From Candidatus Saccharimonadota bacterium (GTDB taxonomy: Bacteria; Patescibacteriota; Saccharimonadia; Saccharimonadales; Saccharimonadaceae): 64,000 bases of DNA. Positions 22,648-51,397 of the stretch are shown one piece after another. The DNA lies in the NCBI GenBank assembly GCA_012270305.1, contig JAAXIO010000021.1:40970-104969 (forward strand). The letters run 5' to 3'. How positions within the stretch are numbered: position 1 is the first letter of the stretch; every line of letters begins with the position of its first letter. The notes under the pieces are model-generated. The model did not search any database, had not been told where the DNA came from, and worked only from the letters and a program-made list of their open reading frames with translations. A program made the position numbers and the translations under genes.

Positions 22648-23973
22648 ATGGACTTACTATCTGTAATGCACCAAGTGTCATTTTTTGCGGACGCGACCGC
22701 TGCAGGAAATGCCATGAGGAACTTCATCGGGCCGACTATCACAACATTGTGTGTGATAGCCGGACTCGTTGCAACTGGCTTCTTAGTACACGGTGGGTTT
22801 CAGATGATAACCAGTTCGGGGCAACCCGATCGGCTTGACCATGCCAAAACAACAATACGCAATGCGATACTCGGTCTAATAATAGTGCTGTCAGCTGCTT
22901 CTTTAACAGCAATCTTAACAAACACATATCAAAATAGTACGAATAAACCTGTCAAGGAAATGCCCGCTCTCACAGAAGTAAAGCCTGATGAGGGTGGCGG
23001 TGGATTGGTAGAGGTACTTATAAATGCTGTTGTGGGCTTGCTCAAAAATATAGTTGAAACAGTCGGCAAACCATTTATTGATGCCTTGCAGTACTTTACA
23101 AAAGCAACGCCACTTATGGCAGAAAACTCTAGCGTCTTTAACTTATGGCTGACAATTGTAGCCATTGCAGATGTGCTGTTTATATTAGTGGTGATATTGC
23201 TCGGTTTTCATGTCATGAGCTTCTCAGCGCTTGGTCTTGAAGAAATTGAGTTTAAACACCTGTTGCCGCAGTTAATTGTCGTATTTCTGCTTATGAACTC
23301 CTCGATCTTTGCGATTGACGCCATTATCAGTCTATCCAATGGAATGATATCGGCCGTTCAGGCTGGCTTCGCCTCATCAACCGTATGGGAATCACTGTCG
23401 AAAGTTATGGACGAATCGAAGGATATGAAGTTAGCAGCACTATTGATTTATATGGTTTTTATCATTTTGTCGGTAGTACTGCTTATTTACTACATTCTCA
23501 GGCTTGTTGTTCTTTACATAGGGGCTGTTTTGTCACCTATCGTGGCAATGTTATGGCTATTACCAAGCTTCAAGGATTTTGCCTCAAACGCTATCCGCTC
23601 GTACATAACAGTTATTTTCGTTCTTTTCGTTCATGTCGTGATCCTAATACTCGCATCTTCAATCTTTGCGGGTATGGCTACCAACGATCCGAACAAGGGA
23701 CTTGATCCGATTATGTCAATGCTGGTTGGAGTGGCAACTGTACTAGCGCTCCTAAAGACGCAGGCCGTTATTCAGCAGATGGCCTACGCTAGTGCTGGGG
23801 CACGTACTGCTCGTAAGCTTGGCGGACAATTCGTCAATGGCGTAAGTCATCTATCTACAAAGGTTCGCCAAAGTAATACTACAACGACAACGAGCAGTAA
23901 AGCCACAGGCTCAACTACAGTAGCAAAAGATAATCCAGCTCGGTCAAACTCAAACAAAGGGTCTAAGTCATGA
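22648..23973 (+). CDS. VirB2-like domain fused to VirB6/TrbL-like T4SS channel protein
   Basis: 441 aa. Residues ~22-92 duplicate the preceding pilin: CVIAGLVATGFLVHGGFQMITSSGQPDRLDHAKTTIRNAILGL versus the pilin's VIAGLAGLVATGFFVAGGFMYITSSGNPEHLDKAK. Residues ~130-400 hold six or more TMs characteristic of VirB6/TrbL (LFILVVILLGFHVM, LLIYMVFIILSVVLLIYYILRLVVLYIGAVLSPIVAMLWLLPSF). The C-terminus is polar, Ser/Thr-rich and cytoplasmic-like. It probably forms the inner-membrane pore. It overlaps the next gene by 4 nt. Confidence 0.82.
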   Translation: MDLLSVMHQVSFFADATAAGNAMRNFIGPTITTLCVIAGLVATGFLVHGGFQMITSSGQPDRLDHAKTTIRNAILGLIIVLSAASLTAILTNTYQNSTNKPVKEMPALTEVKPDEGGGGLVEVLINAVVGLLKNIVETVGKPFIDALQYFTKATPLMAENSSVFNLWLTIVAIADVLFILVVILLGFHVMSFSALGLEEIEFKHLLPQLIVVFLLMNSSIFAIDAIISLSNGMISAVQAGFASSTVWESLSKVMDESKDMKLAALLIYMVFIILSVVLLIYYILRLVVLYIGAVLSPIVAMLWLLPSFKDFASNAIRSYITVIFVLFVHVVILILASSIFAGMATNDPNKGLDPIMSMLVGVATVLALLKTQAVIQQMAYASAGARTARKLGGQFVNGVSHLSTKVRQSNTTTTTSSKATGSTTVAKDNPARSNSNKGSKS

Positions 23974-24476
23974 AAACAACCGTAGTTCCAGCACAGGTTA
24001 CGACTGTCGAAGACAAAGTAACGGGCAGCCTTAGCCTCCAGCAACTTATCATGCTTACCTCACCAATCTTTTTGGGAAGTATCGTCTATGTATTATTTCC
24101 ACCCTTCTTCAAGGCAGAACCATATAAGATTGTCGTCATCGTAACAATCTTCACCGTCTTTGCCACACTCGCAATACGCATCAAGGGAAAGTTACTTATC
24201 CAATGGATTGCCGTACTGTTTCGATACAACGCACGTCCCCGCTTCTATATCTATAACAAAAGAGATAGCTATTTACGCATCAAACATGACGAGTCACCAA
24301 CAACGAAAGTAACAAAGCAACCGCCTCAAAAAGCGAGTTCACCTATTATTACGACAACCGTACCCATATCTGACAAGGCAGTGCTTGAGCAGATTGTTAT
24401 TGATCCTCGTGCTAGATTGAGATTCCGCACGAACAAGAAAGGAGGTCTTGATGTCCATATTCAAGAAATCAAATAA
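23970..24476 (+). CDS. PrgI/VirB3-like T4SS membrane protein
   Basis: 168 aa. An N-terminal PQVxxxEDKVTGSLSLQQL-type PrgI signature (VPAQVTTVEDKVTGSLSLQQLI) is followed by two TMs (~35-52, 59-77) and a cytoplasmic domain with RPRFYIYNKRD. The family is the Gram-positive/CPR counterpart of VirB3 and sits before VirB4, as here. ATGA overlap with the gene before; SD of the next gene lies within it. Confidence 0.82.
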   Translation: MKTTVVPAQVTTVEDKVTGSLSLQQLIMLTSPIFLGSIVYVLFPPFFKAEPYKIVVIVTIFTVFATLAIRIKGKLLIQWIAVLFRYNARPRFYIYNKRDSYLRIKHDESPTTKVTKQPPQKASSPIITTTVPISDKAVLEQIVIDPRARLRFRTNKKGGLDVHIQEIK

Positions 24477-25065
24477 AAAAGCGTCCTCGCGTAGCCAGAT
24501 AGCTATCAAAGGTGTACAAGATGGCATCTTGATTCTTCCTGGCAATCGTTACCGTATGATATTACAGGTTTCATCAATCAACTTTGAGCTAAAAAGCGAA
24601 GATGAACAAGACGCACTTATTGATACCTACCAGAACTTTCTTAATTCGCTCGCTTGCCCCTTGCAGATGATCGTTCGTGTTCGTGAGATGGATATGGATA
24701 AATATATAGAGGAGTATCGCCTAAAAATTGACGGTGAGAAACAGAAAGTCTATCGTCCCCAGATAAAGAACTACAATGAGTTTGTACAGGGGGTGATTAG
24801 TAAAAACAAAATCCTTGCTCGCCATTTCTACGTCGTTGTACCCTTTAACGCCAAGGACCGCCAAAACTTCGAGATGATCAAGGAGCAGTTACTACTTAAT
24901 AGTGATATCGTCACCAAAGGACTTGCCAGACTCGGAGTACATACGCACCATCTCAGTAGTCTTGAGGTACTCGACCTATTCTATACGTTCTACAATCCAC
25001 AATCAGCTAAGCGCCAACCAATCAGTGAACAGACGATGCAGTTACTTAAGGAGTCATACCTATGA
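24451..25065 (+). CDS. TraC/VirB4 N-terminal-domain protein (split VirB4)
   Basis: 204 aa from ATG 24451 (SD AAAGGAGG). GVQDGILILPGNRYRMILQVSSINFELKSEDEQDALIDTYQNFLNSL is the TraC-like N-terminal domain normally fused to VirB4. Further helices (FNAKDRQNFEMIKEQLLLN) follow and it ends at LKESYL. There is no Walker motif. It overlaps the ATPase gene by 4 nt, so the VirB4 function is split in two translationally coupled genes. Confidence 0.8.
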   Translation: MSIFKKSNKKASSRSQIAIKGVQDGILILPGNRYRMILQVSSINFELKSEDEQDALIDTYQNFLNSLACPLQMIVRVREMDMDKYIEEYRLKIDGEKQKVYRPQIKNYNEFVQGVISKNKILARHFYVVVPFNAKDRQNFEMIKEQLLLNSDIVTKGLARLGVHTHHLSSLEVLDLFYTFYNPQSAKRQPISEQTMQLLKESYL

Positions 25066-26885
25066 AGCTGAAAGCACTCAAACCTACTAAAGCCGTGGCA
25101 AAAAAGCCTACTAAGAAGACGAAGCGTAAAAACAACAAAACATTTGCCAGTCTGCCTCCGATTAAAAAGATTAACGCATGGAAGAAACGACGCGAGGAGC
25201 GGCCTAAACAGCTCGCACTAACTTATGGCGAACAAGACCCGATGGATATCATCTCCTACTCTGGTCTTGAGGAACAGCCAAATTACGTCGAAATTGACGA
25301 TCAATTTATCCGCACGTTATTTATATCGGGCTACCCCCTCACAGCATCATCCGGTTGGCTCAATAGCCTTATTAACTTTAGCCATGATATTGATATCTCT
25401 TATCACTTTCATGAAGTTGATGCACTACAAGCACTACCAAAACTTCGTCGCAAAATTACCGAACTTGAGTCTACTAAACGTGCCATGATACGCAGCGGCA
25501 AGGTTATTGGCTCAGAAATTACCGATCCGCTTGATTCTGCCACGGAACTACGAGACAAAATCCAGCGAGGGCAAGAGAAGCTATTTCAAATGTCGATATA
25601 TATGACTATCACTGCTCCGTCACTCGCTGAACTGGAGAATGTTACTAAACTATTGGAAACAGAGCTATCTGCACGACTATTTTATGTCAAATCCTCACGC
25701 TATCAGCAAATAGAGGGCTTGCAATCGGTTCTACCACGGGGTGAAGATATACTTGATCAGAAACGTAACCTTGATAGTTCGTCAGCAGCACTTACATTTC
25801 CCCTTATGTCATCTGAACTCGTACAAGAATCCGGCATCTTATACGGTGTTAATAAATCAAACAATTCATTGGTGATACTTGATAGGTTCGCGCTGAACAA
25901 TGCAAACAGCATTATCTTTGCACAGTCTGGTAGTGGCAAAAGCTACGCTACAAAAGTGGAGATACTACGCCAGCTCATGCAAGGTACTCGCGTTATTGTG
26001 ATCGACCCTGAACGTGAGTATAAACAACTTACTGAATCGGTAAACGGTACGTACATCAAGCTCTCGGCCAAGAGTAAAGAAAAGATTAATCCGTTTGACC
26101 TCACAACAAACTCATACACACATGACAGGATTGCCGAGCATGCCCAAGATTTGACTGAAGTCATCGGTCTCATGGCTGAGGGACTGGAGCCACGCGAAAA
26201 AGCGGCGGTTGATAAAGCAATATTGCATGTTTATCGCAAGGCGAAAAAGAACACCACTCCACTCTTATCAGACCTGTACGCGGCCTTAAAAGACATGGGG
26301 CATTTGACCCTTTGTGAGCGACTAGAGAAGTACATCAGCGGTTCGCTAGCTAACGTCTTTAACGAGCAAACAAACATCAAGTTAGATAATCGTCTGGTTA
26401 TCTTCGATATCAAAGACTTGCCCGAATCACTAAGACAAATCATGATGATGATTATTTCTAACTTTGTGCAGAACCAAGTTAAGACCCATCCCGAAAAACG
26501 TATGCTTGTCATAGATGAAGGGTGGATGCTGCTTGAGCATGAGGAGAGTGCACGATTTGTCGCAGGACTGGTAAGACGTGCTCGAAAATACTATCTTGGT
26601 GTATCTATCATTTCACAGCAAGCCAATGACTTTCTGCGTAATGATTATGGTCGTGCGATTGCATCTCAAAGCAGTCTTCGTATATTGATGCGTCAAGATA
26701 CGACAACTATAAAAGGTGTCGTAAATGAGTTTAATTTGAGTGAATATGAACAGACCTTCCTACTGACCTGCGAAAGAGGAGATGCACTAATAATTGCTGA
26801 TCAAAATCATGTTGCCGTAAAGGTTGTAGCGAGTGAGAAGGAGCACCCTCTAATTACCACCAACCCTAACGAGATTTATACATGA
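25062..26885 (+). CDS. virB4: VirB4-like T4SS ATPase
   Basis: 607 aa. A basic N-terminus (KKPTKKTKRKNNK) precedes the CagE/TrbE-VirB4 domain (~55-270) and the RecA-like ATPase with Walker A SGSGKS (K293), RVIVIDPEREYKQL and Walker B KRMLVIDEGWMLLEHEESARF. The motif RKYYLGVSIISQQANDFL is the VirB4/VirD4 arginine region. It powers pilus assembly and substrate transfer at the inner membrane. 4-nt overlaps with both neighbours. Confidence 0.93.
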   Translation: MKLKALKPTKAVAKKPTKKTKRKNNKTFASLPPIKKINAWKKRREERPKQLALTYGEQDPMDIISYSGLEEQPNYVEIDDQFIRTLFISGYPLTASSGWLNSLINFSHDIDISYHFHEVDALQALPKLRRKITELESTKRAMIRSGKVIGSEITDPLDSATELRDKIQRGQEKLFQMSIYMTITAPSLAELENVTKLLETELSARLFYVKSSRYQQIEGLQSVLPRGEDILDQKRNLDSSSAALTFPLMSSELVQESGILYGVNKSNNSLVILDRFALNNANSIIFAQSGSGKSYATKVEILRQLMQGTRVIVIDPEREYKQLTESVNGTYIKLSAKSKEKINPFDLTTNSYTHDRIAEHAQDLTEVIGLMAEGLEPREKAAVDKAILHVYRKAKKNTTPLLSDLYAALKDMGHLTLCERLEKYISGSLANVFNEQTNIKLDNRLVIFDIKDLPESLRQIMMMIISNFVQNQVKTHPEKRMLVIDEGWMLLEHEESARFVAGLVRRARKYYLGVSIISQQANDFLRNDYGRAIASQSSLRILMRQDTTTIKGVVNEFNLSEYEQTFLLTCERGDALIIADQNHVAVKVVASEKEHPLITTNPNEIYT

Positions 26886-27508
26886 ACAAACTCCTCTTTG
26901 GCGTCATTGTATCGTTTAAGAAAGAGGCTTATATTGTTCTCGGCACCTTAGCGTTTATCTTATTTCTACCACTTATCGCGGTCGTAGTTATTTCAAACGC
27001 TGGTGTTGCTGCCGTATCTCAGGCACTAGTAGCAATCAATCCAGTCACGCACCTCGTAGAAATATTTGATTCAAAGGGTAATAAGATCGATGAACGCGAA
27101 CTTTCAACAGCGTGGCCAATTAAGGGTACTATCACAGACACGTTTGGGTCTTTTGGTGGTTTTAGAGTCAATCTTGGGCTTGGATCTCATACAGCAATCG
27201 ACATTGGTGCAAACGCCGGAACGCCAATCACTCCCTTTGCAAAAGGCAAGGTTGTAATGGTTGATAACCTAGGCAATACTGCTTGCGGTCTGAGTGTCAG
27301 AGTGGATCATGGAGGTAATGTTGAATCGTTATACTGCCATATGTCAAAAACAAACGCCACACTTCAGCAAGAAGTAAAGCCTGGTGACGTAATTGGCTAT
27401 GTTGGCTCAACTGGTGTATCTACTGGCAATCATGTTCATTTTCAGGTAAATGTCCATGGCATACCAGTTAACCCACGCACCTTCATGGTGGGAGAGCCTA
27501 ATGGATAA
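26882..27508 (+). CDS. membrane-anchored M23 (LytM) peptidoglycan peptidase of the T4SS
   Basis: 208 aa. TM at ~14-40, then an extracellular LytM domain in normal order: AWPIKGTITDTFGSFGG, HTAIDIGANAGTPI (HxxxD), SLYCHMSK, VGSTGVSTGNHVHFQV (HxH). All four zinc/catalytic positions are present. It probably opens peptidoglycan for the conjugation channel, the VirB1-type role. It overlaps the coupling-protein gene by 8 nt. Confidence 0.9.
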   Translation: MNKLLFGVIVSFKKEAYIVLGTLAFILFLPLIAVVVISNAGVAAVSQALVAINPVTHLVEIFDSKGNKIDERELSTAWPIKGTITDTFGSFGGFRVNLGLGSHTAIDIGANAGTPITPFAKGKVVMVDNLGNTACGLSVRVDHGGNVESLYCHMSKTNATLQQEVKPGDVIGYVGSTGVSTGNHVHFQVNVHGIPVNPRTFMVGEPNG

Positions 27509-30125
27509 TATACTCACTTTCTTGTCATCCGTAGCCGACCGGCTACCGACTATTGGCATCTGGCTACTTGCAGTGGTATGTAGCTGGCTGTTTGTAGTTG
27601 TCTGCTTAAAAATCTGGGATTTTGTCTATGCACTCAGAATGCAGCATACGTTTTTTGAGCTAATACCTCCAGCACAGGCGGCCAAAAAGGCTCGTGCCAC
27701 CCAAGAGTTCTTTGCTGTGCTACATGGTCTTTACGGCTCCAGAACACTCTCCGACAAACTATTACGTCGCCAGCCTCATATATCGCTTGAAGTAACGTCA
27801 ACCAAGCAAGGCGGTATCAGGTATATTGCAAGCGTGCCAAATGATGTTGTTGAAACCTTCCATCAAACAATCACCTCATATCTCCCTGATATGATCGTTA
27901 AGCAAACTGATGATTATTTCTCGCCACATACCTCTGGTCAAACTATTGAGTTTCGCCAGACTGGACATTTTGCATTCCCACTAAACGTACAGGAAGAGTT
28001 AGAACAGCATGACCCGATCGCTTACCTTACCGGATCAATGACTAAGCTTGAAGCTGACGAACATGTGACATTTCAAATTGTCCTCACGCCAACCCGTGTC
28101 AAAGAAGCAGAGGTTATTGCCCGAAAAATCCTGACTAATGAGGACTTGCTCAGTAGGCTTGAAGGCAAACGTATGCCAGGGATAGGGGGTGTTTTCACCC
28201 TAATTAACTCTTTTATATTTAGTATCATGGATAGTATTGGCGGTGGGTTCTCTGGCTCATCAAGCAGCTATCGTCGTGAATCAGTAGATACACAGCTCGC
28301 TCGTCATAAGCAACAGGCCGCACTTGGGCTCAAGCCAACCCGCGTACTAAGCACATTCGAACAGCAGCTTATTGAGTCCATACACCACAAGGTTAACCAA
28401 CCGATATTTTTGGCTACTGCTAGGGCATATGTCGTAAGTGCAAGCAAACGAAAGCGCCAACAACGCATCAAAGGTATCAGGGCATCACTAGCTTCCTTTA
28501 ACGTACCAAAATACCAATCGCTCCAGGCACGTTCTAGCTTTCCAAGGCAAATTATGAATAGATACCGAACCTTTGCCCTAGAGCATCGTCTACCGTCATT
28601 TTTGCCCCATAAAGCATCTTTACTTGCTACAAGTGAGCTGTCCGACTTGTATCACTTTCCATATGCGGGAACGACTAAGACTGAAAATATCGTCAAATCG
28701 TTAAGCCGTACTTTGCCAGCACCGCTTTCACTCAAACGCGATACAGATTTTGATGTCGTATTAGGCATTAACAAGTATCATGGCGAATCGACCCCCATCG
28801 GCCTTACCGAAAAAGAGCGTGAACGACACGTTTATATTATTGGCGGTACAGGTAATGGTAAGACGACTATGCTGCAATATGCACTTGTGCAAGATATAAG
28901 AAATGGGAAAGGTATTGCCGTCATCGATCCTCACGGTGACATGGCCGAAACTTTATTACGACATGTGCCATATGAGCGTGTGAAAGATGTAGTATATTTC
29001 AACCCAGACGACCTAGGATATCCTATTGGCCTTAACTTACTTGAACTAGACGATGAACTAGAGGGCGACGAATTATTGCGAGAAAAAGACCTGATTACCG
29101 AAACAGTCGTTTCTATCTTTCGTAAAATATTCTCAGAGGATGACTCGGGCGGACATCGCATTGAGTACATGCTACGCAACGCTGTGCAGACCGCACTCAC
29201 TCAGGAAAACGCTACATTGTTTACAGTGTATGACTTAATCAACGACCCTACTTATCGCAAGAAAGTCATCCAGACGCTAGAAGATGAAAACCTCAAACAC
29301 TTCTGGCGTAATGAGTTTGGTAAAGCCGGTGGTATGCAACGCGTTAAAATGGCAGCCGGTATCACCGCTAAAATAGGACGTTTTCTATTCTCTGCTAGTG
29401 CCAAGCGCATTTTAGAGCAAGAGAAGTCTACGATTGATTTTGATGACATTATCAACAATCGTAAGATACTTATTTGCAACTTCTCAAAGGGCTTACTCGG
29501 TGAAGATACATCCGAACTGTTTGGCATTATGGTACTAGCCAAGCTTCAACTCGCTTCACTTCGTCGTGCTCGTATGCAACAATCCGACAGAACGCCATAC
29601 CATCTTTATGTTGACGAGTTCCAAAACTTCGCCACCATATCATTCGTGCAAATGCTATCTGAGTCACGTAAATATAAGCTATTCCTTACAATGGCCGAAC
29701 AGTCAACCTCACAGCAAGATGATCAACGTATGGTAAATATCATCCTTGCCAATGTTGGTACCGTCATTTGCTTCAGGACGGGCAACCCCGCAGATGAGCA
29801 ATCGCTGCTCCAAATGTTTACACCTTATATTGAACAGGGCGAAATCGCCAATTTGCCAGCGTTCAACTACTATGTGCGTATCGCTGCCATACAGTCACAA
29901 GAACCACTGTCGGGCGAAACGCTGCTACTTGATGAGGATATTACTGAAAGTGATACGATTCGCAAGAGTATCGTTGATAATTCACGTAAGAACTATGCGA
30001 TAAAATATGATGCAAAGAAATCTCAACAGTCAGTTCGATCAAAAACATCTAAGCCTCAGAAAAAATCTAGGCCAAAAACCGATAAGCCCACTGCACCTTC
30101 ACGCAGAAAGCTACCTGGCGAATAA
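27501..30125 (+). CDS. virD4: VirD4/TraG-like T4SS coupling ATPase
   Basis: 874 aa from ATG 27501; the upstream extension to 27450 lies inside the M23 gene. TM at ~10-35, DUF8128-like domain (~50-380), then ATPase with Walker A GGTGNGKTTML (~450), IAVIDPHGDMAETLL, Walker B PYHLYVDEFQNFAT and the sensor LFLTMAEQSTSQQ. The TraM-recognition region follows, with a Lys/Ser/Pro tail. It couples substrate DNA or protein to the T4SS. Last gene of the T4SS operon. Confidence 0.9.
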   Translation: MDNILTFLSSVADRLPTIGIWLLAVVCSWLFVVVCLKIWDFVYALRMQHTFFELIPPAQAAKKARATQEFFAVLHGLYGSRTLSDKLLRRQPHISLEVTSTKQGGIRYIASVPNDVVETFHQTITSYLPDMIVKQTDDYFSPHTSGQTIEFRQTGHFAFPLNVQEELEQHDPIAYLTGSMTKLEADEHVTFQIVLTPTRVKEAEVIARKILTNEDLLSRLEGKRMPGIGGVFTLINSFIFSIMDSIGGGFSGSSSSYRRESVDTQLARHKQQAALGLKPTRVLSTFEQQLIESIHHKVNQPIFLATARAYVVSASKRKRQQRIKGIRASLASFNVPKYQSLQARSSFPRQIMNRYRTFALEHRLPSFLPHKASLLATSELSDLYHFPYAGTTKTENIVKSLSRTLPAPLSLKRDTDFDVVLGINKYHGESTPIGLTEKERERHVYIIGGTGNGKTTMLQYALVQDIRNGKGIAVIDPHGDMAETLLRHVPYERVKDVVYFNPDDLGYPIGLNLLELDDELEGDELLREKDLITETVVSIFRKIFSEDDSGGHRIEYMLRNAVQTALTQENATLFTVYDLINDPTYRKKVIQTLEDENLKHFWRNEFGKAGGMQRVKMAAGITAKIGRFLFSASAKRILEQEKSTIDFDDIINNRKILICNFSKGLLGEDTSELFGIMVLAKLQLASLRRARMQQSDRTPYHLYVDEFQNFATISFVQMLSESRKYKLFLTMAEQSTSQQDDQRMVNIILANVGTVICFRTGNPADEQSLLQMFTPYIEQGEIANLPAFNYYVRIAAIQSQEPLSGETLLLDEDITESDTIRKSIVDNSRKNYAIKYDAKKSQQSVRSKTSKPQKKSRPKTDKPTAPSRRKLPGE

Positions 30126-44378: not shown

Positions 44379-45590
44379 TTATCCTACGAACGTAAGCCAG
44401 ATCAATGCGATATTCAACATCACGATAACCCCTACAATTAAGCCGAGGATACCCGTTATCCATTTGCTGTTACGCTCTTCACCCATAATCTTCTGACTAG
44501 AAGTAGCGAGAAGTAATGGAATCAGTGCAAAAGGAATCCCAAAGCTCAAAATAACCTGTGAAATGATCAGTGCTTGAGTTGGGTCAATGCCAAATCCGAT
44601 AATGATAATAGCAGGAATTATGGTAATTACTCGACGTACTAATAAAGATATCCGTCGCTTCAATAAACCGTCCATAATAACAGCACCGGCATGAGCACCC
44701 ACTGTTGTACTTGCAAATCCTGATACCAACAAGCTTAGACCAAATAGTCCGGCTACGATAGGGCTAACATTACTACCGAGAGCACTAAAAATACCCTCTA
44801 AGCTATCGGCGTTCACATCTCCTCGAAGTGCTGAAGCGGCTAGGAGTAACATTGAGATATTGACACTTCCAGCTATGACCATAGCAATTCCGACATCAAA
44901 CTTTGTGGCCTTGAGCATTTTCTTTAGTTCAGTCTTTGCGGATTTGCCATGACGATCGCGGGCTAACGCAGAGTGCAGATAAACTACATGCGGCATCACG
45001 GTTGCACCGAGCATTGCAGTAGCTAACAGAACCATATCCGTACTTTCCAGTCTTGGGATAACGCCCCCTAATATACCCATTGCGTCGGGCGGTTGCATTA
45101 CGAGTCCAACAAAGAACCCGATAGGTATAATCATAAGCAACCCTATAATAATCCGCTCAAAAAGTTTCTGGCCGCGTCTTGTATAAATAAATAGCAGTAA
45201 CAGTGATACTAGTCCTGTGATAACCGCACCAGTAAGAAGTGGCAAACCGAACAGTAAGTTAAGTGCGATCGCTCCACCAATCACCTCTGCTAGATCAGTT
45301 GAGATTGCTACTGCTTCAGCTTGCAGCCAGTAAGCTATCCGACTATTTCTACCTAAGCGTTTCGCAACAACTTCCGGTAGGCTCATGCCTGTCACAAGGC
45401 CGATTTTTGCAGATAAGTATTGCACTAGCATTGCCATTAAGTTGGCAGCTATCAGTACCCAAAGTAGTGTATAGCCGTACTGTGCTCCAGCGGAAAAGTT
45501 AGCGGCAAAATTGCCAGGGTCAACATAAGCTACCGACGCTACAAAGGCCGGTCCTAGCAGTAGTAGTATCCTACGAACTTTACCCTTCAT
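44379..45590 (-). CDS. mntH: NRAMP-family Mn/Fe transporter
   Basis: 403 aa from ATG 45590 (GGGAG close upstream; frame extends to 45659). 11 TM-type helices. TM1 metal site AYVDPGNFAANF (DPGN) and TM6 region AxxMPH equivalent AMLGATVMPHVVYLHSAL. EAVAISTDLAEVIGGAIALNLLFG is the other conserved stretch. Imports Mn2+ or Fe2+ with H+. Oriented against the metal-ATPase operon. A ~130-nt leader lies upstream. Confidence 0.94.
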   Translation of the reverse strand: MKGKVRRILLLLGPAFVASVAYVDPGNFAANFSAGAQYGYTLLWVLIAANLMAMLVQYLSAKIGLVTGMSLPEVVAKRLGRNSRIAYWLQAEAVAISTDLAEVIGGAIALNLLFGLPLLTGAVITGLVSLLLLFIYTRRGQKLFERIIIGLLMIIPIGFFVGLVMQPPDAMGILGGVIPRLESTDMVLLATAMLGATVMPHVVYLHSALARDRHGKSAKTELKKMLKATKFDVGIAMVIAGSVNISMLLLAASALRGDVNADSLEGIFSALGSNVSPIVAGLFGLSLLVSGFASTTVGAHAGAVIMDGLLKRRISLLVRRVITIIPAIIIIGFGIDPTQALIISQVILSFGIPFALIPLLLATSSQKIMGEERNSKWITGILGLIVGVIVMLNIALIWLTFVG

Positions 45591-45720
45591 TACTCCCAAT
45601 ACTTGCTGTGGTGGCTGACTATCCGTGTAACACGTCCGCCCTAAAGCCAATAGGCTCAATCCATCCGATAAGCTTATATACCGGCGAGTAAGTAGGAGCT
45701 ACGATTACACTTCTATGACT
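45591..45720 (-). promoter_or_regulatory. mntH leader with small hairpins
   Basis: A TATAGT/TATTAT box lies near 45715-45725 on the minus strand. The leader contains the palindrome ATAAGCTTAT, an AGCC-TATT-GGCT hairpin and CGTGT-ACACG symmetry. It does not match the yybP-ykoY manganese riboswitch by eye. Regulation is possible but unproven. Confidence 0.3.
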
Positions 45721-45735
45721 ATAATATCAGTAAAA

Positions 45736-45759
45736 TTGCAAATAATTGCAAAAGTTGCA
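45736..45759 (+). repeat. three spaced TTGCA repeats (iteron-like)
   Basis: TTGCA occurs at 45736, 45746 and 45755, spaced 10 and 9 bp in AT-rich DNA, beside the plasmid-like gene block. It could be a regulator or replication-protein binding array. Confidence 0.35.
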
Positions 45760-45797
45760 TAACGATAATTAATAACCTCCTCACTTCACGTACTGCC

Positions 45798-45890
45798 TCA
45801 TTATACGGGTCGAGCAAACGCATCAAGGTCGTATTCACCCCTGAATACGATTTTTTCTTTTAATTACTGTATTCAAGGGGAATCTCCACC
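45798..45890 (+). promoter_or_regulatory. repeated leader element, copy 1
   Basis: A conserved block from TCATTATACGGGT to GGGGAATCTCCA shared with 46656-46754. Core hairpin CCCCTGAATAC (45838-45848) pairs with GTATTC-A-AGGGG (45869-45880) with one bulged A, around the conserved loop tract ATTTTTTCTTTTAATT. It precedes SD AAAGGAGG and the gene at 45954. Confidence 0.6.
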
Positions 45891-45953
45891 TGTTACACAT
45901 TTGCCATGCGACCCCGTCAGCAGACTCCGTTACGTAAAGTAAAGGAGGAAGAA

Positions 45954-46253
45954 ATGACTAGCGTAGCTCAAGCAACACAAACCGAAACCACCGGATACCA
46001 AGGGTGGAGTAATTACGAGACGTGGCTCATCAACCACTGGCTCACGAACGATGAGAGCTACTACAAGCAGCTTCAACTCATCGTCTCGTCACACAGTGGC
46101 GTGCAAGATCAAGCCGAAGCCCTGCATGAGTGGCTACAGCTTGAACACGAAGAACTAGAGATCACTAATCTCTGGAGCGACATCGTGGGCAGCACTCTCT
46201 GTCGGACAAACTACCAAGAGATTGTTGAAGCCAATGTGGAGGAGACGCTATGA
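45954..46253 (+). CDS. DUF7249-like NYETW protein
   Basis: 99 aa from ATG 45954 (SD AAAGGAGG). GYQGWSNYETWLINHWLTND is the signature of a small family found on phages and plasmids. The rest is helical (LQLIVSSHSGVQDQAEALHEWLQLE). Function unknown. ATGA overlap with the next gene. Supports the plasmid-like nature of this part of the element. Confidence 0.7.
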   Translation: MTSVAQATQTETTGYQGWSNYETWLINHWLTNDESYYKQLQLIVSSHSGVQDQAEALHEWLQLEHEELEITNLWSDIVGSTLCRTNYQEIVEANVEETL

Positions 46254-46531
46254 GCGTCTCTCCATCTCCCCAGAGCATAGAAAAGTGCCGCAAGTTCTGG
46301 GCGAACGTGGCGAAGAAGAATGGCTGGTATAAAGAGCCGTTCTACGTACAGGTATGGGCAGATAGCCGCGGTGAAATTACCGATAGCGTGTCCTTTGACG
46401 GTCTTCAAGAAGACATTGTGGAACTTATCGGTGACTTTGCACACTGTGCATCGTGCGATATTGTTATCGATCTCGACTTCGATAAGTGGTACTGCGATGA
46501 CTACAACACCTACTGCGACAACTGCCAGTAG
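46250..46531 (+). CDS. small Cys-rich protein, unknown
   Basis: 93 aa. EKCRKFWANVAKKNGWYKEPFYVQVWADSRGEI, then a C-terminal cluster HCASCDI and WYCDDYNTYCDNCQ that could bind zinc. Overlaps the NYETW gene by 4 nt. Its stop is followed after 4 nt by an RNA pseudoknot element. No family recognised. Confidence 0.65.
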   Translation: MSVSPSPQSIEKCRKFWANVAKKNGWYKEPFYVQVWADSRGEITDSVSFDGLQEDIVELIGDFAHCASCDIVIDLDFDKWYCDDYNTYCDNCQ

Positions 46532-46535
46532 TTCA

Positions 46536-46562
46536 CGTCCTGAGCATGACGCTAAACTGCTC
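46536..46562 (+). ncRNA. 3' pseudoknot element, copy a
   Basis: Stem CGTC (46536-46539) with GACG (46548-46551). Loop bases GAGCA (46542-46546) pair with TGCTC (46558-46562) downstream, giving an H-type pseudoknot. Copies at 47396 and 47937 keep both helices with different loop bases. Confidence 0.65.
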
Positions 46563-46655
46563 CTATAGTCATGCTATACGGAATATCGGAAGTATTACGA
46601 GGTTGTTCTGCAAATATCAGTGAGACTATGTAAGAGTCTTCCTCCCTCTGTCTCT

Positions 46656-46754
46656 TCATTATACGGGTGAACCAAAACAATCAAGGTAGTATTCACCCCT
46701 AAGATATAAATCATTTTTTCTTTTAATTGAATATCTTAAGGGGAATCTCCAGCC
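46656..46754 (+). promoter_or_regulatory. repeated leader element, copy 2
   Basis: Same block order as 45798-45890. Core stem CCCCTAAGATAT (46696-46707) pairs with ATATCTT-A-AGGGG (46731-46743), the same bulged A and loop tract but different stem bases than copy 1, i.e. compensatory changes. It lies ~75 nt before the DUF3768 gene. The rest of 46563-46830 holds no gene. Confidence 0.6.
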
Positions 46755-46830
46755 TTGACAGTTTTGGTGTCATCCCGAGCCCTTCTGACAGAGAGGGAGA
46801 AAGCCCTCTCGTTAAGCAAAGGAGGGTCTT

Positions 46831-47169
46831 ATGGACACCGAAGAAAGAATACAAATCGAAACAGCAGCAAAGATTGCTGCTCTCAACGACGCAGCCAGGA
46901 GCAACGCTGCGAACTATATGGCGACAAGGGGCATTATGTCTCTAAAACCAGAAGTTATCTCAGATATCTTTATTGGTGTACAGGGGTTCACGGACTTCAC
47001 TGAAGGTAATGACCCCTACGGTGAGCATGATTTTGGCTCACTCAAGGTAGACGGCAATAAAGTCTTCTGGAAAATAGATTACTACACCAAAGACTTATCC
47101 GGAGGGTGTGATCCACTCGATCCGGAGTGTCGGCGGGTGCTGACCATTATGTTAGCCGAGGAGTACTAG
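46831..47169 (+). CDS. DUF3768-family protein
   Basis: 112 aa, SD AAAGGAGGG. NDPYGEHDFGSLKVDGNKVFWKIDYYTKDLSGGCDPLDPECRRVLTIMLAEEY matches the DUF3768 core (DFG...FWKIDYYD...SPDPADP...RVLTIMLAxEY). Common on plasmids and mobile elements; function unknown. Ends at a strong terminator. Confidence 0.85.
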   Translation: MDTEERIQIETAAKIAALNDAARSNAANYMATRGIMSLKPEVISDIFIGVQGFTDFTEGNDPYGEHDFGSLKVDGNKVFWKIDYYTKDLSGGCDPLDPECRRVLTIMLAEEY

Positions 47170-47395: not shown

Positions 47396-47424
47396 CGGTC
47401 CTAGGCAAGACGGGAAACTGCCTA
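47396..47424 (+). ncRNA. 3' pseudoknot element, copy b
   Basis: Stem CG(g)TC / GACG with one bulged G. Loop TAGGCA (47402-47407) pairs with TGCCTA (47419-47424). It sits between two genes, ~30 nt before the next start. Confidence 0.65.
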
Positions 47425-47453
47425 TCAAAGTTTAATCCTAAAGGAGAAAAGAT

Positions 47454-47930: not shown

Positions 47931-47936
47931 CCAGTC

Positions 47937-47964
47937 CGTCCTAGGCAGGACGTAAAACTGCCTA
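47937..47964 (+). ncRNA. 3' pseudoknot element, copy c
   Basis: Stem CGTCC (47937-47941) with GGACG (47948-47952). Loop TAGGCA (47942-47947) pairs with TGCCTA (47959-47964). All positions pair perfectly. Confidence 0.7.
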
Positions 47965-48548
47965 GCAAGGAAAGACTAACCACTGGCCGCACCATGTAAA
48001 CAGTCCAAGGACTATTTACATCGTCCGTCCAGTTAAACAGCAAGTATAGGCATGTCCGTACTTACCCCCTCGGACTTTACATGCGTCCCGCAGTAAAGTT
48101 CCTCGCGTGCAAGAACGAACAATGCCTCAGACGCGTCTACGCTACAACATAGATTTACTTATTGTTATCTTATTTGTCGCAAGGTACGGACAGCCGGTAC
48201 ATACTGTCCGTTGGACAGAATGTACGCAACTGCCGCACACTTGGCCAAATAAGTAGACCCCGAACGCACCGGCAAATATGACCATTACAAGCTCGTTATC
48301 ACTCACTTGCAATCGTCATATTGCCTTCATCTAATCCATACATTTAACTAGCCTGAACACTACTAATCTATTGATACTACCCTATGCATATGTTTGTATT
48401 AAAGTATTATTACGTAATCATAGTTATATTATAGTTTTATATCTGTTATTAATGTATATTATTCCAACCTTATATTTATATAAAGAGAGGAAAAGAAAAA
48501 AGAAAAAGAGTATAATAAGAATGTAAAGAGTAAGAGCAAGGAGGGCTT
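47965..48548. other. gene-free region with three long inverted repeats (candidate oriT/origin or structured RNA)
   Basis: No frame fits. IR1 (47994-48021): ATGTAAA-c-AGTCC/GGACT-a-TTTACAT, loop AA. IR2 (48072-48102): GGACTTTAC/GTAAAGTTCC with a bulge. IR3 (48197-48225): GTACAT-a-CTGTCC/GGACAG-a-ATGTAC, loop GTT. 48350-48540 is very AT-rich. Location inside a conjugative-type element between maintenance genes and the replication-relaxation gene fits an oriT or origin. Confidence 0.4.
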
Positions 48549-49370
48549 ATGAGTAAAGGCGATGACACGCCTGACAAAGCCAGGCGGCCACTCAATACGA
48601 ATCAGCTTGATACGCTTAGGTTGATTTATCGCTTTCGCTTTGTAACGACTGAGTTAATAGCTCATCGTAAAAATAAAAAGCGCGATGCCGTGACTAATGC
48701 TCACATGCGGGTCTTATACGAACAAGGCTATATAGGGCGTCACTACGATTCAAGCTACAAGCTACAAGGTAAGCATGCGGCCTATTATTTATTGCCAAAA
48801 GGACTAGCTGCACTTAAAGAAAAAGATGACTCAATTACAAGTACTAGTAAGACAATTTACAATGATCGTAAAGCCTCAGATCGCTTTATAGAACATAGCT
48901 TAGCTGTATTCTCAGTGGCTTGCACATTTCAGCGTTTATACGATGGCACAAAGCAATTTTTTGCAAAGACCGAACTAGCCACATTTGACTATTTCCCCCA
49001 ACCAATGCCTGACGGCTACTTGTCTATTAAACAGAAAAATAAACGATACCATTTCTTTGTAGACATTTACACTGAATCTACTCCAATGTTTGTGCATATA
49101 CGTACACTTAAACGATATATCACCTACGACGAGTCTGGAGAGTGGGATGTAACTGAGAGTGATTTTCCTAGCATTATGGTTATTTGCGACACCAAGAGCC
49201 TAAAAAACCGGCTCATGACACGTATTCAGAGCATATTTGAAGAAGAAGCCCCTCACTTAGTAGTATTAGCAACTACTGTAGATGAGCTGCTTAATAGTAA
49301 TGATCGTGATGATCGAATTTGGTCTCCTATAAACTCTGAGGATTTTGTTCCAAGAAAACTTCTAAAATAA
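48549..49370 (+). CDS. replication-relaxation family winged-helix protein
   Basis: 273 aa, SD AAGGAGGG. N-terminal winged helix LNTNQLDTLRLIYRFRFVTTELIAHR, RVLYEQGYIGRHYD and YYLLPKGLAAL match Replic_Relax proteins. The C-terminal part (~110-270, DRFIEHSLAVFSVACTF, FADIYTES-like FFVDIYTEST) resembles their nuclease-like domain. Family members are linked to plasmid replication or mobilisation and may be the closest thing to a mobilisation protein here. Confidence 0.8.
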   Translation: MSKGDDTPDKARRPLNTNQLDTLRLIYRFRFVTTELIAHRKNKKRDAVTNAHMRVLYEQGYIGRHYDSSYKLQGKHAAYYLLPKGLAALKEKDDSITSTSKTIYNDRKASDRFIEHSLAVFSVACTFQRLYDGTKQFFAKTELATFDYFPQPMPDGYLSIKQKNKRYHFFVDIYTESTPMFVHIRTLKRYITYDESGEWDVTESDFPSIMVICDTKSLKNRLMTRIQSIFEEEAPHLVVLATTVDELLNSNDRDDRIWSPINSEDFVPRKLLK

Positions 49371-49456: not shown

Positions 49457-49636
49457 ATGGGCAGAACGAAAGGCACTAAAAACAAGAATCCACCAGCGGT
49501 ACCAGACACCGTAAGCTTTACGACTGAACAACGTGTCGAGTTCATCGCAACCCTCATAGTTGAACGCATACTTGAAGATATTTCTAATGGAAAACCCCTC
49601 TTAAAGCAACTAGGAGGCGATCATGCCCCCGAATAG
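49457..49636 (+). CDS. 59-aa protein upstream of and overlapping the recombinase
   Basis: ATG 49457 with SD AGGAGGG; TAG 49634-49636. Basic N-terminus MGRTKGTKNKNPPAVP, then a helical part (TTEQRVEFIATLIVERILEDIS). Its 3' end overlaps the recombinase start by 14 nt, so they are translationally coupled. Position suggests a recombination directionality or regulatory partner (inference only). Confidence 0.6.
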   Translation: MGRTKGTKNKNPPAVPDTVSFTTEQRVEFIATLIVERILEDISNGKPLLKQLGGDHAPE

Positions 49637-51350
49637 CTTACCTCCAAAGCTCCGTACACTTCTCGCGGTACGAGTCTCAACACTCGGCCAGGGTATCGAT
49701 GGTGACTCGCCAGAGGCACAAATAGAACAAGGCGAGCTCTATGCACCACGGCACAATATGGAGATTGTCATGATACTCCAGTATCTTGAGTCCGCATCGA
49801 AAGAGCAACAGCCAATGCAGGAGGTTATTAACTACTGTAAAAAGCACAAAGGCGAAATAGATGTTGTGCTCATCAAATCTATTGACCGCTTTACTCGTGC
49901 TGGTTCGACTGTTTACGATCAACTCAAGGAGCAGCTTGAGCCGCTTGGTGTTATGCTCGTTGACATGTACGGGGTAATCGGTGCCCAGAAAGTAAATACC
50001 CTAGAGCACCTCGGTCAAGAGTACCGATGGAGCGTTTATTCTCCAACCCGCAAAACGGAACTTCTGGAGGCTGAACGCGCTAAAGATGAAGTACGCGACA
50101 TCTTGAGCCGTATGATTGGCTCAGAGATACGGTATACGCAGATTGGATATTGGTCGCGTGGCGCTCGATACGGCTACAAAACGAAAAAGATTGAGACCAC
50201 AAACGGCAAACGTACCATACTTACGTCAGATGGGGACAAGGCGAAGATTATCCGTATGATGTATGAGGAACGTGCAGCAGCCGTCCTTAGCGATGATGAA
50301 ATCGCTAAGAAAATGAATGATATGGGCTTTCGTACTCCTATAAAGGTTGTACGAGACAAGAAAGACCGCACGAAGATAGTAAGTCGTACTGGCAACAAGC
50401 TCATGACGGGTAAACTCCTACGCACCTATATTAAGCAGACGATCTATGCTGGCGTGAATACCGAGAAATGGACAGGAGACAAGCCTGTTAAGTGTAAGTT
50501 TGATGGTCTCGTCTCCCCCGATCTGTTTAACCAAGCAAATCGCGGCAAAGTTGTCATTCGTGATAATCCTGATGACCCCGATCATCCTATTGTCGAAGAA
50601 GCACCAAAACTAGAAAAGTTTGCCAAAAAGAATGTCTATAATGCCGATTACCCGTATCGTAAGGTAGTTATGTGCCCTCATTGCCGTAAACCGCTGCTAG
50701 GTAGTGCCTCGCGTGGCAAATTGGGTAAATACTACCCTGCCTATCACTGTAGCAACCACGGCCATTATTTCCGCGTCCGCAAGGAAGAGTTTGACAAAGT
50801 GGTTGAAGAGTTCGTACAAAGCGTTATCGTGCGTCCTGAGCGCATAGACGAGCTTGTAGGGGCTGTTACGGCTGTTTATGAGCAACGACAAGGCCAGAAG
50901 GTACAGGCCGAGGAATTAGTAGATAAACGACGCTTAGAGCTAGAGGCTGAAATCAAAGTCATTATCGACAAGATGAAGCTGATTAGCTCCGAGACTGCAA
51001 TTAAATACATGGAGGAGGACTTAGTAAAACTAGAGCAAGAAATAAAGAGCCTAGACACAAAAAGGGAGGAAGAAGCAGCCAAAGAAACCGTCGATTTGCC
51101 GACCATGTTGACATATGTCAAATACTTTATGGAACACCTCAAAGATTTGCTTATCGACCACTGTAATCCAGTCAAAAGAGCACAGTATTTTGGAGTAATT
51201 TTCGATGAGGTGGCAACTTTCCAAGAAATAAAAGATGGAACCCCAGAAATAGAAAAAATCCCAGGGGTGAACGAGCTATTTAAGCTCATCAACTCTGAGA
51301 AAGTCTCTTTGGTGCGGCGAAGAGGACTTGAACCTCCACGATCGCAATGA
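49623..51350 (+). CDS. large serine recombinase (integrase) of the element
   Basis: 575 aa, SD AGGAGG. Resolvase domain with catalytic S19 (LLAVRVSTLGQG), conserved IDRFTRAGS, recombinase domain (~150-300), zinc ribbon CPHC (C351/C354) ... YHCSNHGHYF and a coiled coil (~420-500). The last 13 codons (from GTG 51312) come from the tRNA-Leu gene (VRRRGLEPPRSQ). In the circular form the frame would continue into 20799-20951 for a 50-residue native tail. Catalyses attP x attB integration and excision. Confidence 0.93.
   Translation: MPPNSLPPKLRTLLAVRVSTLGQGIDGDSPEAQIEQGELYAPRHNMEIVMILQYLESASKEQQPMQEVINYCKKHKGEIDVVLIKSIDRFTRAGSTVYDQLKEQLEPLGVMLVDMYGVIGAQKVNTLEHLGQEYRWSVYSPTRKTELLEAERAKDEVRDILSRMIGSEIRYTQIGYWSRGARYGYKTKKIETTNGKRTILTSDGDKAKIIRMMYEERAAAVLSDDEIAKKMNDMGFRTPIKVVRDKKDRTKIVSRTGNKLMTGKLLRTYIKQTIYAGVNTEKWTGDKPVKCKFDGLVSPDLFNQANRGKVVIRDNPDDPDHPIVEEAPKLEKFAKKNVYNADYPYRKVVMCPHCRKPLLGSASRGKLGKYYPAYHCSNHGHYFRVRKEEFDKVVEEFVQSVIVRPERIDELVGAVTAVYEQRQGQKVQAEELVDKRRLELEAEIKVIIDKMKLISSETAIKYMEEDLVKLEQEIKSLDTKREEEAAKETVDLPTMLTYVKYFMEHLKDLLIDHCNPVKRAQYFGVIFDEVATFQEIKDGTPEIEKIPGVNELFKLINSEKVSLVRRRGLEPPRSQ
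51308..51315. other. right attachment site core (attR) in tRNA-Leu 3' end
   Basis: TTTGGTGC, identical to 20795-20802. It covers the CCA end and last acceptor base of tRNA-Leu(GAG), so integration leaves the tRNA intact. Confidence 0.65.
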
Positions 51351-51397
51351 TCACTAGCCCCTCAAGCTAGCGCGTCTACCAATTCCGCCACCGCCGC
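51310..51397 (-). tRNA. tRNA-Leu (GAG), integration target
   Basis: 88 nt with encoded CCA. Acceptor GCGGCGG, anticodon loop TTGAGGG gives GAG, long variable arm, T loop TTCAAGT. The recombinase C-terminus is encoded on the opposite strand over its 3' half. No terminator follows; the element has separated it from one. Confidence 0.95.

Follow-up and report, generated by a model that had tools for sequence, protein, structure and literature searches.

Frpo1 and Frpo2 of plasmid F reportedly go back to the work of Masai and Arai in 1997. In Frpo/ssi elements a stem-loop formed by single-stranded DNA rebuilds the −35 and −10 boxes of a promoter, recruits RNA polymerase and drives early genes of the leading region until conversion to double-stranded DNA (PMC9849209, PMC11541004). 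Promoter boxes in folded single-stranded DNA, the ssi/Frpo-like ones of ColIb-P9 among them, also stand before early, putative anti-defence genes in plasmid leading regions (Samuel et al. 2024, PMC11541004), as they appear to do at the locus described here. The candidates of that survey were gathered by BLAST to known sequences and by a consensus search, and its text makes no mention of Patescibacteria (PMC11541004). The EGeRS of the pLS20 family resemble the present elements in being large inverted repeats upstream of establishment genes of conjugative elements, but they are much longer and fold without forming a promoter. Their authors reject single-stranded DNA promoters there because the transferred strand is the non-template strand (PMC8708921), in which respect they also differ from what is proposed here.

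The window (the whole stretch of 64,000 nts that was analysed) contains two copies of a folded element, A and B, which are very probably single-stranded DNA promoters, Frpo/ssi-like in working, belonging to a mobile element whose host resembles Saccharibacterium. The data presented here show the fold and how it covaries, the strand that folds, the promoter boxes with their geometry and the link to particular genes. So far as we are aware, the single-stranded DNA promoters with experimental proof all come from plasmids of enterobacteria, F and ColIb-P9 for instance, and we know of no earlier family of them backed by covariation and a strand test instead of by similarity or a consensus search. 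A search of the open literature (subscription papers and preprints lay outside it) returned nothing on such promoters in Saccharibacteria, and for Patescibacteria, a very large group of minute, parasitic bacteria, they are apparently unreported.

As with Frpo1 and Frpo2 of F, the folded single strand would rebuild a −35 and a −10 upstream of small leading-region genes, there are two copies per element, and the putative leading genes point towards the presumed oriT. The order (Frpo, leading genes, oriT, relaxosome genes) is also that of F, the oriT of the window being a candidate. Unlike F, which has an AT-rich upper stem, the predicted promoters of Patescibacteria have a tip hairpin that is variable or absent. 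In F Frpo2 the extra unpaired bases are mainly on the other arm, and its boxes cannot be confidently placed from sequence alone. The host phylum and the genes differ as well. A blastn search with copy A against a plasmid collection that included F and ColIb-P9 gave no match. Since no sequence relation was found, the likeness to Frpo is one of working, without demonstrated descent. If the reading is right, one of the largest bacterial radiations has a family of single-stranded DNA promoters with no detectable sequence relation to those described.

Anatomy of the fold and its relatives

Copy A is predicted to occupy 45776–45948 on the bottom (−) strand, before a DUF7249 gene, and copy B 46638–46803 on the same strand, before a DUF3768 gene. 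Comparison of the two with their relatives gives a nested fold which runs, from outside to inside, through a helix P0, an unpaired zone with the conserved TCATTATAC, the helices P1, P2 and P3, and a variable tip, P4. In copy A the outer arm of P0 (CCTCCTCACTTCACGTA on the + strand, 45776–45792), which would be the downstream duplex of the promoter, pairs with the inner arm at 45931–45948 (CCTCC..ACTTCACGTA with TACGTAAAGT..GGAGG). The outer arm of P1 (ACGGGTCG on the + strand, 45805–45812) has its covarying partner at 45909–45917, those of P2 (GCAAA) and P3 together (45814–45829) have theirs at 45888–45904, and P4 takes up 45832–45887. In copy B the outer arm of P0 (CTTCCTCCCTCTGTC on the + strand, 46638–46652) pairs with its partner at 46787–46803 (GACAGAGAGGGAGAAAG; CTTCCTCCCTCTGTC with GACAGAG..GGAGAAAG), the outer arms of P1 (ACGGGT), P2 (ACCAAAAC) and P3 (TCAAGGT, pairing with ACCTTGA) at 46663–46687 have their partners at 46753–46777, and P4 takes up 46691–46750. 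A switch in copy B between P0 and GAGAGG/CCCTCTC pairings was weighed and discarded as needless.

Folded as bottom-strand DNA, each copy is better than 200 of 200 dinucleotide shuffles (z = −4.65 for A and −6.47 for B). The top strand folded as RNA is also stable (z = −5.81), and the top-strand folds, whether RNA or DNA, nearly match those of the bottom strand. Because hairpins fold on both strands, fold energy by itself cannot identify the strand.

A preliminary description of this DNA, made from the top strand, had reported two leader hairpins with shared blocks, and all the blocks that it quoted are present. Within the window TCATTATACGGGT has just two occurrences, at 45798 and 46656, GGGGAATCTCCA is restricted to the same two copies, the loop ATTTTTTCTTTTAATT is identical in both, and the stems, unlike in sequence, are nevertheless paired in both. 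One common cis-acting folded element does precede both Shine Dalgarno-bearing operons. The hairpins themselves are real, but each makes up just the variable tip, P4, of a far bigger structure extending to the Shine Dalgarno region, and sister copies which lack the tip hairpin (L073, for example) retain the outer helices P0–P3. The bulged A that was taken to be conserved is an artefact of the top-strand reading; on the bottom strand it is a T.G wobble in a stem that is continuous but for a single bulged base.

Homology search with a covariance model, proposed in the same description, was done with a model of eight sister cores, none of them from the tested window segments (the eight include a third copy, from another part of the source genome). 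The model recovers both copies, matching 45798–45917 in A (E = 1.3e-6) and 46656–46778 in B (E = 1.2e-13), so that chance resemblance between the two is excluded, and it also finds the third copy of the source genome. Blastn within one family gave matches in 20 of 295 genomes. With the model, the genomes with a match number 27 of 394 for the family, 30 of 392 for the order, 32 of 392 for the class and 14 of 380 for a phylum sample. The element is present in four families of the order, in another family of the class and in other classes of Patescibacteria. Rfam, searched with the window and the sister loci, has no match at gathering score, and a permissive scan yielded chance-level matches only, with no relevant family.

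At the loci that were fetched, intact matches are nearly all directly 5′ of DUF3768 or DUF7249 genes. In sister elements carrying these genes, singled out beforehand as the place where the motif might prove absent, it recurs before them. The exception is one genome (G748), in which two matches (L122 and L123) precede the gene for a 55-aa protein (MKTRGEAVTDFLEEDRKYSELVKEYRGDDEAL...), possibly a further early gene. When named genomes were searched for DUF3768, the motif-bearing loci were nearly all from Candidatus Saccharibacteria, Berkelbacteria and other Patescibacteria, with one from a bin labelled Chthonomonas. Neither the DUF3768 genes of Alphaproteobacteria nor the 80 DUF3768-carrying viral contigs that were examined have the motif, and one exact-pattern search in viral contigs was also empty. 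Long inverted repeats are present 5′ of some DUF3768 genes outside Patescibacteria (L198, L200, L204, L153 and L199, from Roseibium, Aquamicrobium, Nitrospirales, Woeseiaceae and Scalindua bins). These repeats, in which no clear −10/−35 architecture was seen, are possibly diverged single-stranded DNA promoters.

Covariation is extensive. In the 16-pair helix P3–P2, which holds the −35 and spacer, 12 of the 16 pairs have changed on both sides among 42 distinct sequences, and none of 500 shuffles reaches the observed pairing or covariation score. P1 has been replaced wholesale with pairing kept (ACGGGTCG/CGACCCCGT, ACGTACCG/CGGCACCGT and ACAGCTCG/CGAGCTTGT), and further variants of it (ACAAAGCAA/TTGCTTTGC and AAGGGGTAA/TTACCCCTT) are also paired. 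The tip P4 has at least three unrelated forms, or is merely a 13-nt loop. The two promoters of an element mostly share one form of it (45832–45887 and 46691–46750 in the window, and G131, G488, G482, G578 and others), though they do not in G114 and G205 (the loci compared include L075, L080 and L081). The likeness within an element suggests either concerted change or a shared binding partner.

Promoter boxes and the strand that folds

Read on the bottom strand, TCATTATAC becomes GTATAATGA, which contains a −10 box: TATAAT at 45800–45805 in copy A and at 46658–46663 in copy B. The hexamer is TAnnnT in all 53 distinct relatives (TATAAT in 27, TATACT in 11, TACAAT in 8, TACACT in 3, TAAAAT in 2, and TATCAT and TATGAT in 1 each); one subgroup outside the class Saccharimonadia has TATAAG, TACAAG or TATACA at the position. 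Most of the spacer varies freely, while −12, −11 and −7 are fully invariant. In recognition of the −10 by sigma-70 these are the bases of greatest weight.

The helices are placed to match. P1 ends on T−12 in most copies (by a crude test T−12 is paired in 35 of 53), so that the bubble would open at −11; in copy A T−12 is the last base of P1 and the strand is unpaired from −11. P0 closes the bubble at −1 in type B and at +2 in type A, near the borders of an open complex, restarting near −1 in copy B itself and at about +2 in copy A. P3 holds the −35, with TTGATx on one arm (TTGATG in copy A and, within the P1–P3 outer arms of copy B, TTGATT at 46679–46684, both on the bottom strand). The other, template-side arm has TTGACA in 23 of 53 relatives and TTGACC in 10; in copy B the right arm has TTGACA at 46755–46760 (+), which would be the duplex −35 of the folded promoter. 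The spacer is 15–16 nts on the −10 arm, which is short for sigma-70, and by inspection 17–19 nts on the opposite arm. The inner arm of P0 is the predicted region of mRNA start in both copies (45931–45948, with the Shine Dalgarno sequence inside it, in A; 46787–46803, about 44 nts 5′ of the ATG, in B; both +). Among relatives the start of P0 is 23–24 nts from the ATG in most of type A and about 44 nts from it in most of type B.

A scan of the duplex region 45560–46860, limited to promoters of sigma-70 type, found none against 1.9 expected by chance, and in double-stranded DNA the −10 box faces away from the gene. Judged by its sequence features, the folded bottom strand would be the only form to give a promoter which faces the gene, with a start 23–45 nts before ATG and Shine Dalgarno.

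Covariation itself is strand-blind, but wobbles are not: what is G.U on the top strand appears as A.C on the bottom one, and vice versa. In the clean 16-pair helix, with 55 distinct arm pairs, 75 mismatches are G.T wobbles on the bottom strand and 5 on the top. (A looser count which takes in the bubble is noisier, at 170 to 55 mismatches, and the 16-pair helix was used instead.) With each column and change type counted once in the order-level set, the figures are 14 for the bottom strand and 3 for the top (binomial p = 0.013), and sequences added by the wider search alone give 8 and 1. Of the cells, 91.7% are paired on the bottom strand versus 83.9% on the top, and none of 500 shuffles is as high. 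F Frpo2, the positive control for strand asymmetry, gave 2 versus 2, too few mismatches to decide. The wobble asymmetry, the pairing percentages and the orientation of the −10 box all point to the bottom strand, the template of the downstream genes, as the strand that folds. Strand-specific deamination bias could add to the asymmetry, but such a bias would itself imply that the bottom strand is often single-stranded.

In the proposed working, the bottom strand, when single-stranded as after transfer into a recipient, would fold back on itself so that the gene-distal arm acts as non-template strand and the gene-proximal arm as template. Its helices would rebuild the −35 (TTGAC) and the spacer (P2 and P1) as duplexes, with P0 as the duplex downstream; between them a bubble from about −11 would leave the −10 box TATAAT unpaired on the non-template arm. 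RNA polymerase could load on this pre-opened promoter and make transcripts of both operons (DUF7249 and DUF3768), with a start within P0 some 23–45 nts 5′ of the start codon. Synthesis of the second strand would abolish the fold and leave the −10 box facing away from the gene, and expression would stop. Recognition by RNA polymerase, activity at entry and conjugative transfer of the bottom strand are what we infer from the architecture.

The evidence on the folded strand is shared by a single-strand initiation site, at which RNA polymerase or primase would prime the complementary strand from the folded bottom strand without gene expression. Many elements have two copies, however, and behind each a Shine Dalgarno sequence and a start codon follow at a constant interval, for which a site that served priming alone would have no use; we regard the priming reading as improbable.

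The view first taken of the locus, a shared cis-regulatory leader RNA, is quite improbable; as such, the top strand would work like a riboswitch or bind a protein, and would gate the Shine Dalgarno sequences of both operons. The element is like the riboswitches and leader RNAs of Rfam in being structured, covarying and before a Shine Dalgarno sequence, its top strand folds well as RNA, and by inspection the upstream P0 arm of copy A, and CCCTC in copy B, can pair with the Shine Dalgarno sequence. Yet the top strand has hardly any of the G.U pairs that an RNA should show (5 of 80 wobble cells) and the other strand has many, the bases of highest conservation are precisely those at −12, −11 and −7 of the −10 box on that other strand, to which the TATAC block belongs, no upstream sigma-70 promoter was found by the scan, and Rfam gave no match at gathering score. 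In contrast to such RNAs, the fold here is that of a DNA template strand. Transcription starts downstream of the hairpins, which would have told against a leader, are a prediction of the single-stranded DNA promoter model, in which the transcript would start inside P0, downstream of the hairpin. No link was found to support the suggested coordination with pseudoknots.

An ordinary double-stranded promoter firing leftwards, or an antisense RNA, that lies within an inverted repeat by chance would accord with TTGATx-15-TATAAT, which reads leftwards in the duplex, and with the Nramp gene leftwards of copy A. It is highly improbable: the DUF7249 operon to the left of copy B runs in the opposite sense, the scan finds no promoter of standard spacing, and neither covariation nor wobble asymmetry is explained, since a leftward transcript would not contain the hairpin. 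A folded recombination site resembling attC, situated where gene cassettes end, to which bottom-strand hairpins with unpaired bases, small genes and a nearby recombinase might point, is hardly credible given the location 5′ of genes at fixed Shine Dalgarno distance, the conservation of promoter consensus positions and a recombinase that is of serine type, with no integron integrase seen.

Downstream genes and the mobile element

The first gene behind copy A (45954–46253, +) encodes an acidic DUF7249 protein of 99 aa (PF23907, 31.9 bits against a cut-off of 27), and the first behind copy B (46831–47169, +) a DUF3768 protein of 112 aa (PF12599, E = 7e-27). Both families are mostly acidic, with a median pI of 4.55 for DUF3768 and 4.2 for DUF7249. 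This fits DNA mimics, though it is no proof. AlphaFold models (pLDDT 93.5 for DUF3768 and 78.7 for DUF7249) had no confident match to any solved fold. A role in establishment or anti-defence is what we infer for the two proteins. If the promoters work as proposed, the element could express these two small early genes immediately on entering a new cell. The covariance model also provides a search tool that marks leading regions, and hence candidate early or anti-defence genes, in the genomes of uncultured bacteria.

Further along are a Replic_Relax protein (48549–49370, +; PF13814, 56.5 bits against a cut-off of 25.3), which adjoins the leading genes in nearly all sister elements and is a candidate mobilisation protein, and a large serine recombinase (49623–51350, +; PF00239), whose reading frame ends inside a tRNA-Leu at 51310–51397. 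A search of the window for an attL duplicate of the end of tRNA-Leu was negative. Between the leading genes and Replic_Relax is a conserved, non-coding, hairpin-rich region at 47931–48330, which has 71–85% identity over about 300 bases in six sister elements (L059, L065, L069, L076, L083 and L107) and is conserved in sister elements regardless of the direction of Replic_Relax. It is a candidate oriT or, alternatively, a structured RNA. In nearly all sister loci holding the Replic_Relax/recombinase block, the genes behind the proposed promoters point towards Replic_Relax, small genes and the large serine recombinase.

The window also has type IV secretion (T4SS) genes at 22648–30125 (pilin/TrbL, PrgI, VirB4, M23 peptidase and VirD4-like), a cluster that lies upstream of a respiratory-chain and metal-ATPase region. 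Such loci are common in Patescibacteria, chromosomal and usually without relaxases, and a 2025 survey considered that, with relaxases scarce, they probably serve roles other than conjugation unless very different relaxases await discovery (PMC12102498). Promoters that are sensible only on entering single-stranded DNA argue that the elements enter as single strands. They suggest which strand is likely to be transferred, which genes are early and where to seek oriT, and they make the disputed conjugation of Patescibacteria testable. A wider reading, less likely than not, is that Patescibacteria exchange integrative elements as single strands, that these carry their own phylum-wide class of single-stranded DNA promoter, that DUF3768 and DUF7249 serve establishment or anti-defence as immediate-early proteins, and that Replic_Relax with 47931–48330 might be the overlooked relaxase and oriT of the phylum.

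Two further features were seen. An Nramp gene is divergent from the first single-stranded DNA promoter in two different elements of the source genome (44379–45659 in the window and 6973–8449 in L085), its position being an apparent slot for metal-transport cargo. An H-type pseudoknot-like motif (GTCCT-GRGCR-YGAC-nnWAAAC-YGCYC), which has no Rfam match, is present in three copies, at 46537–46567, 47398–47428 and 47938–47968; it sits after stop codons or before the next Shine Dalgarno sequence and recurs in many sister elements.
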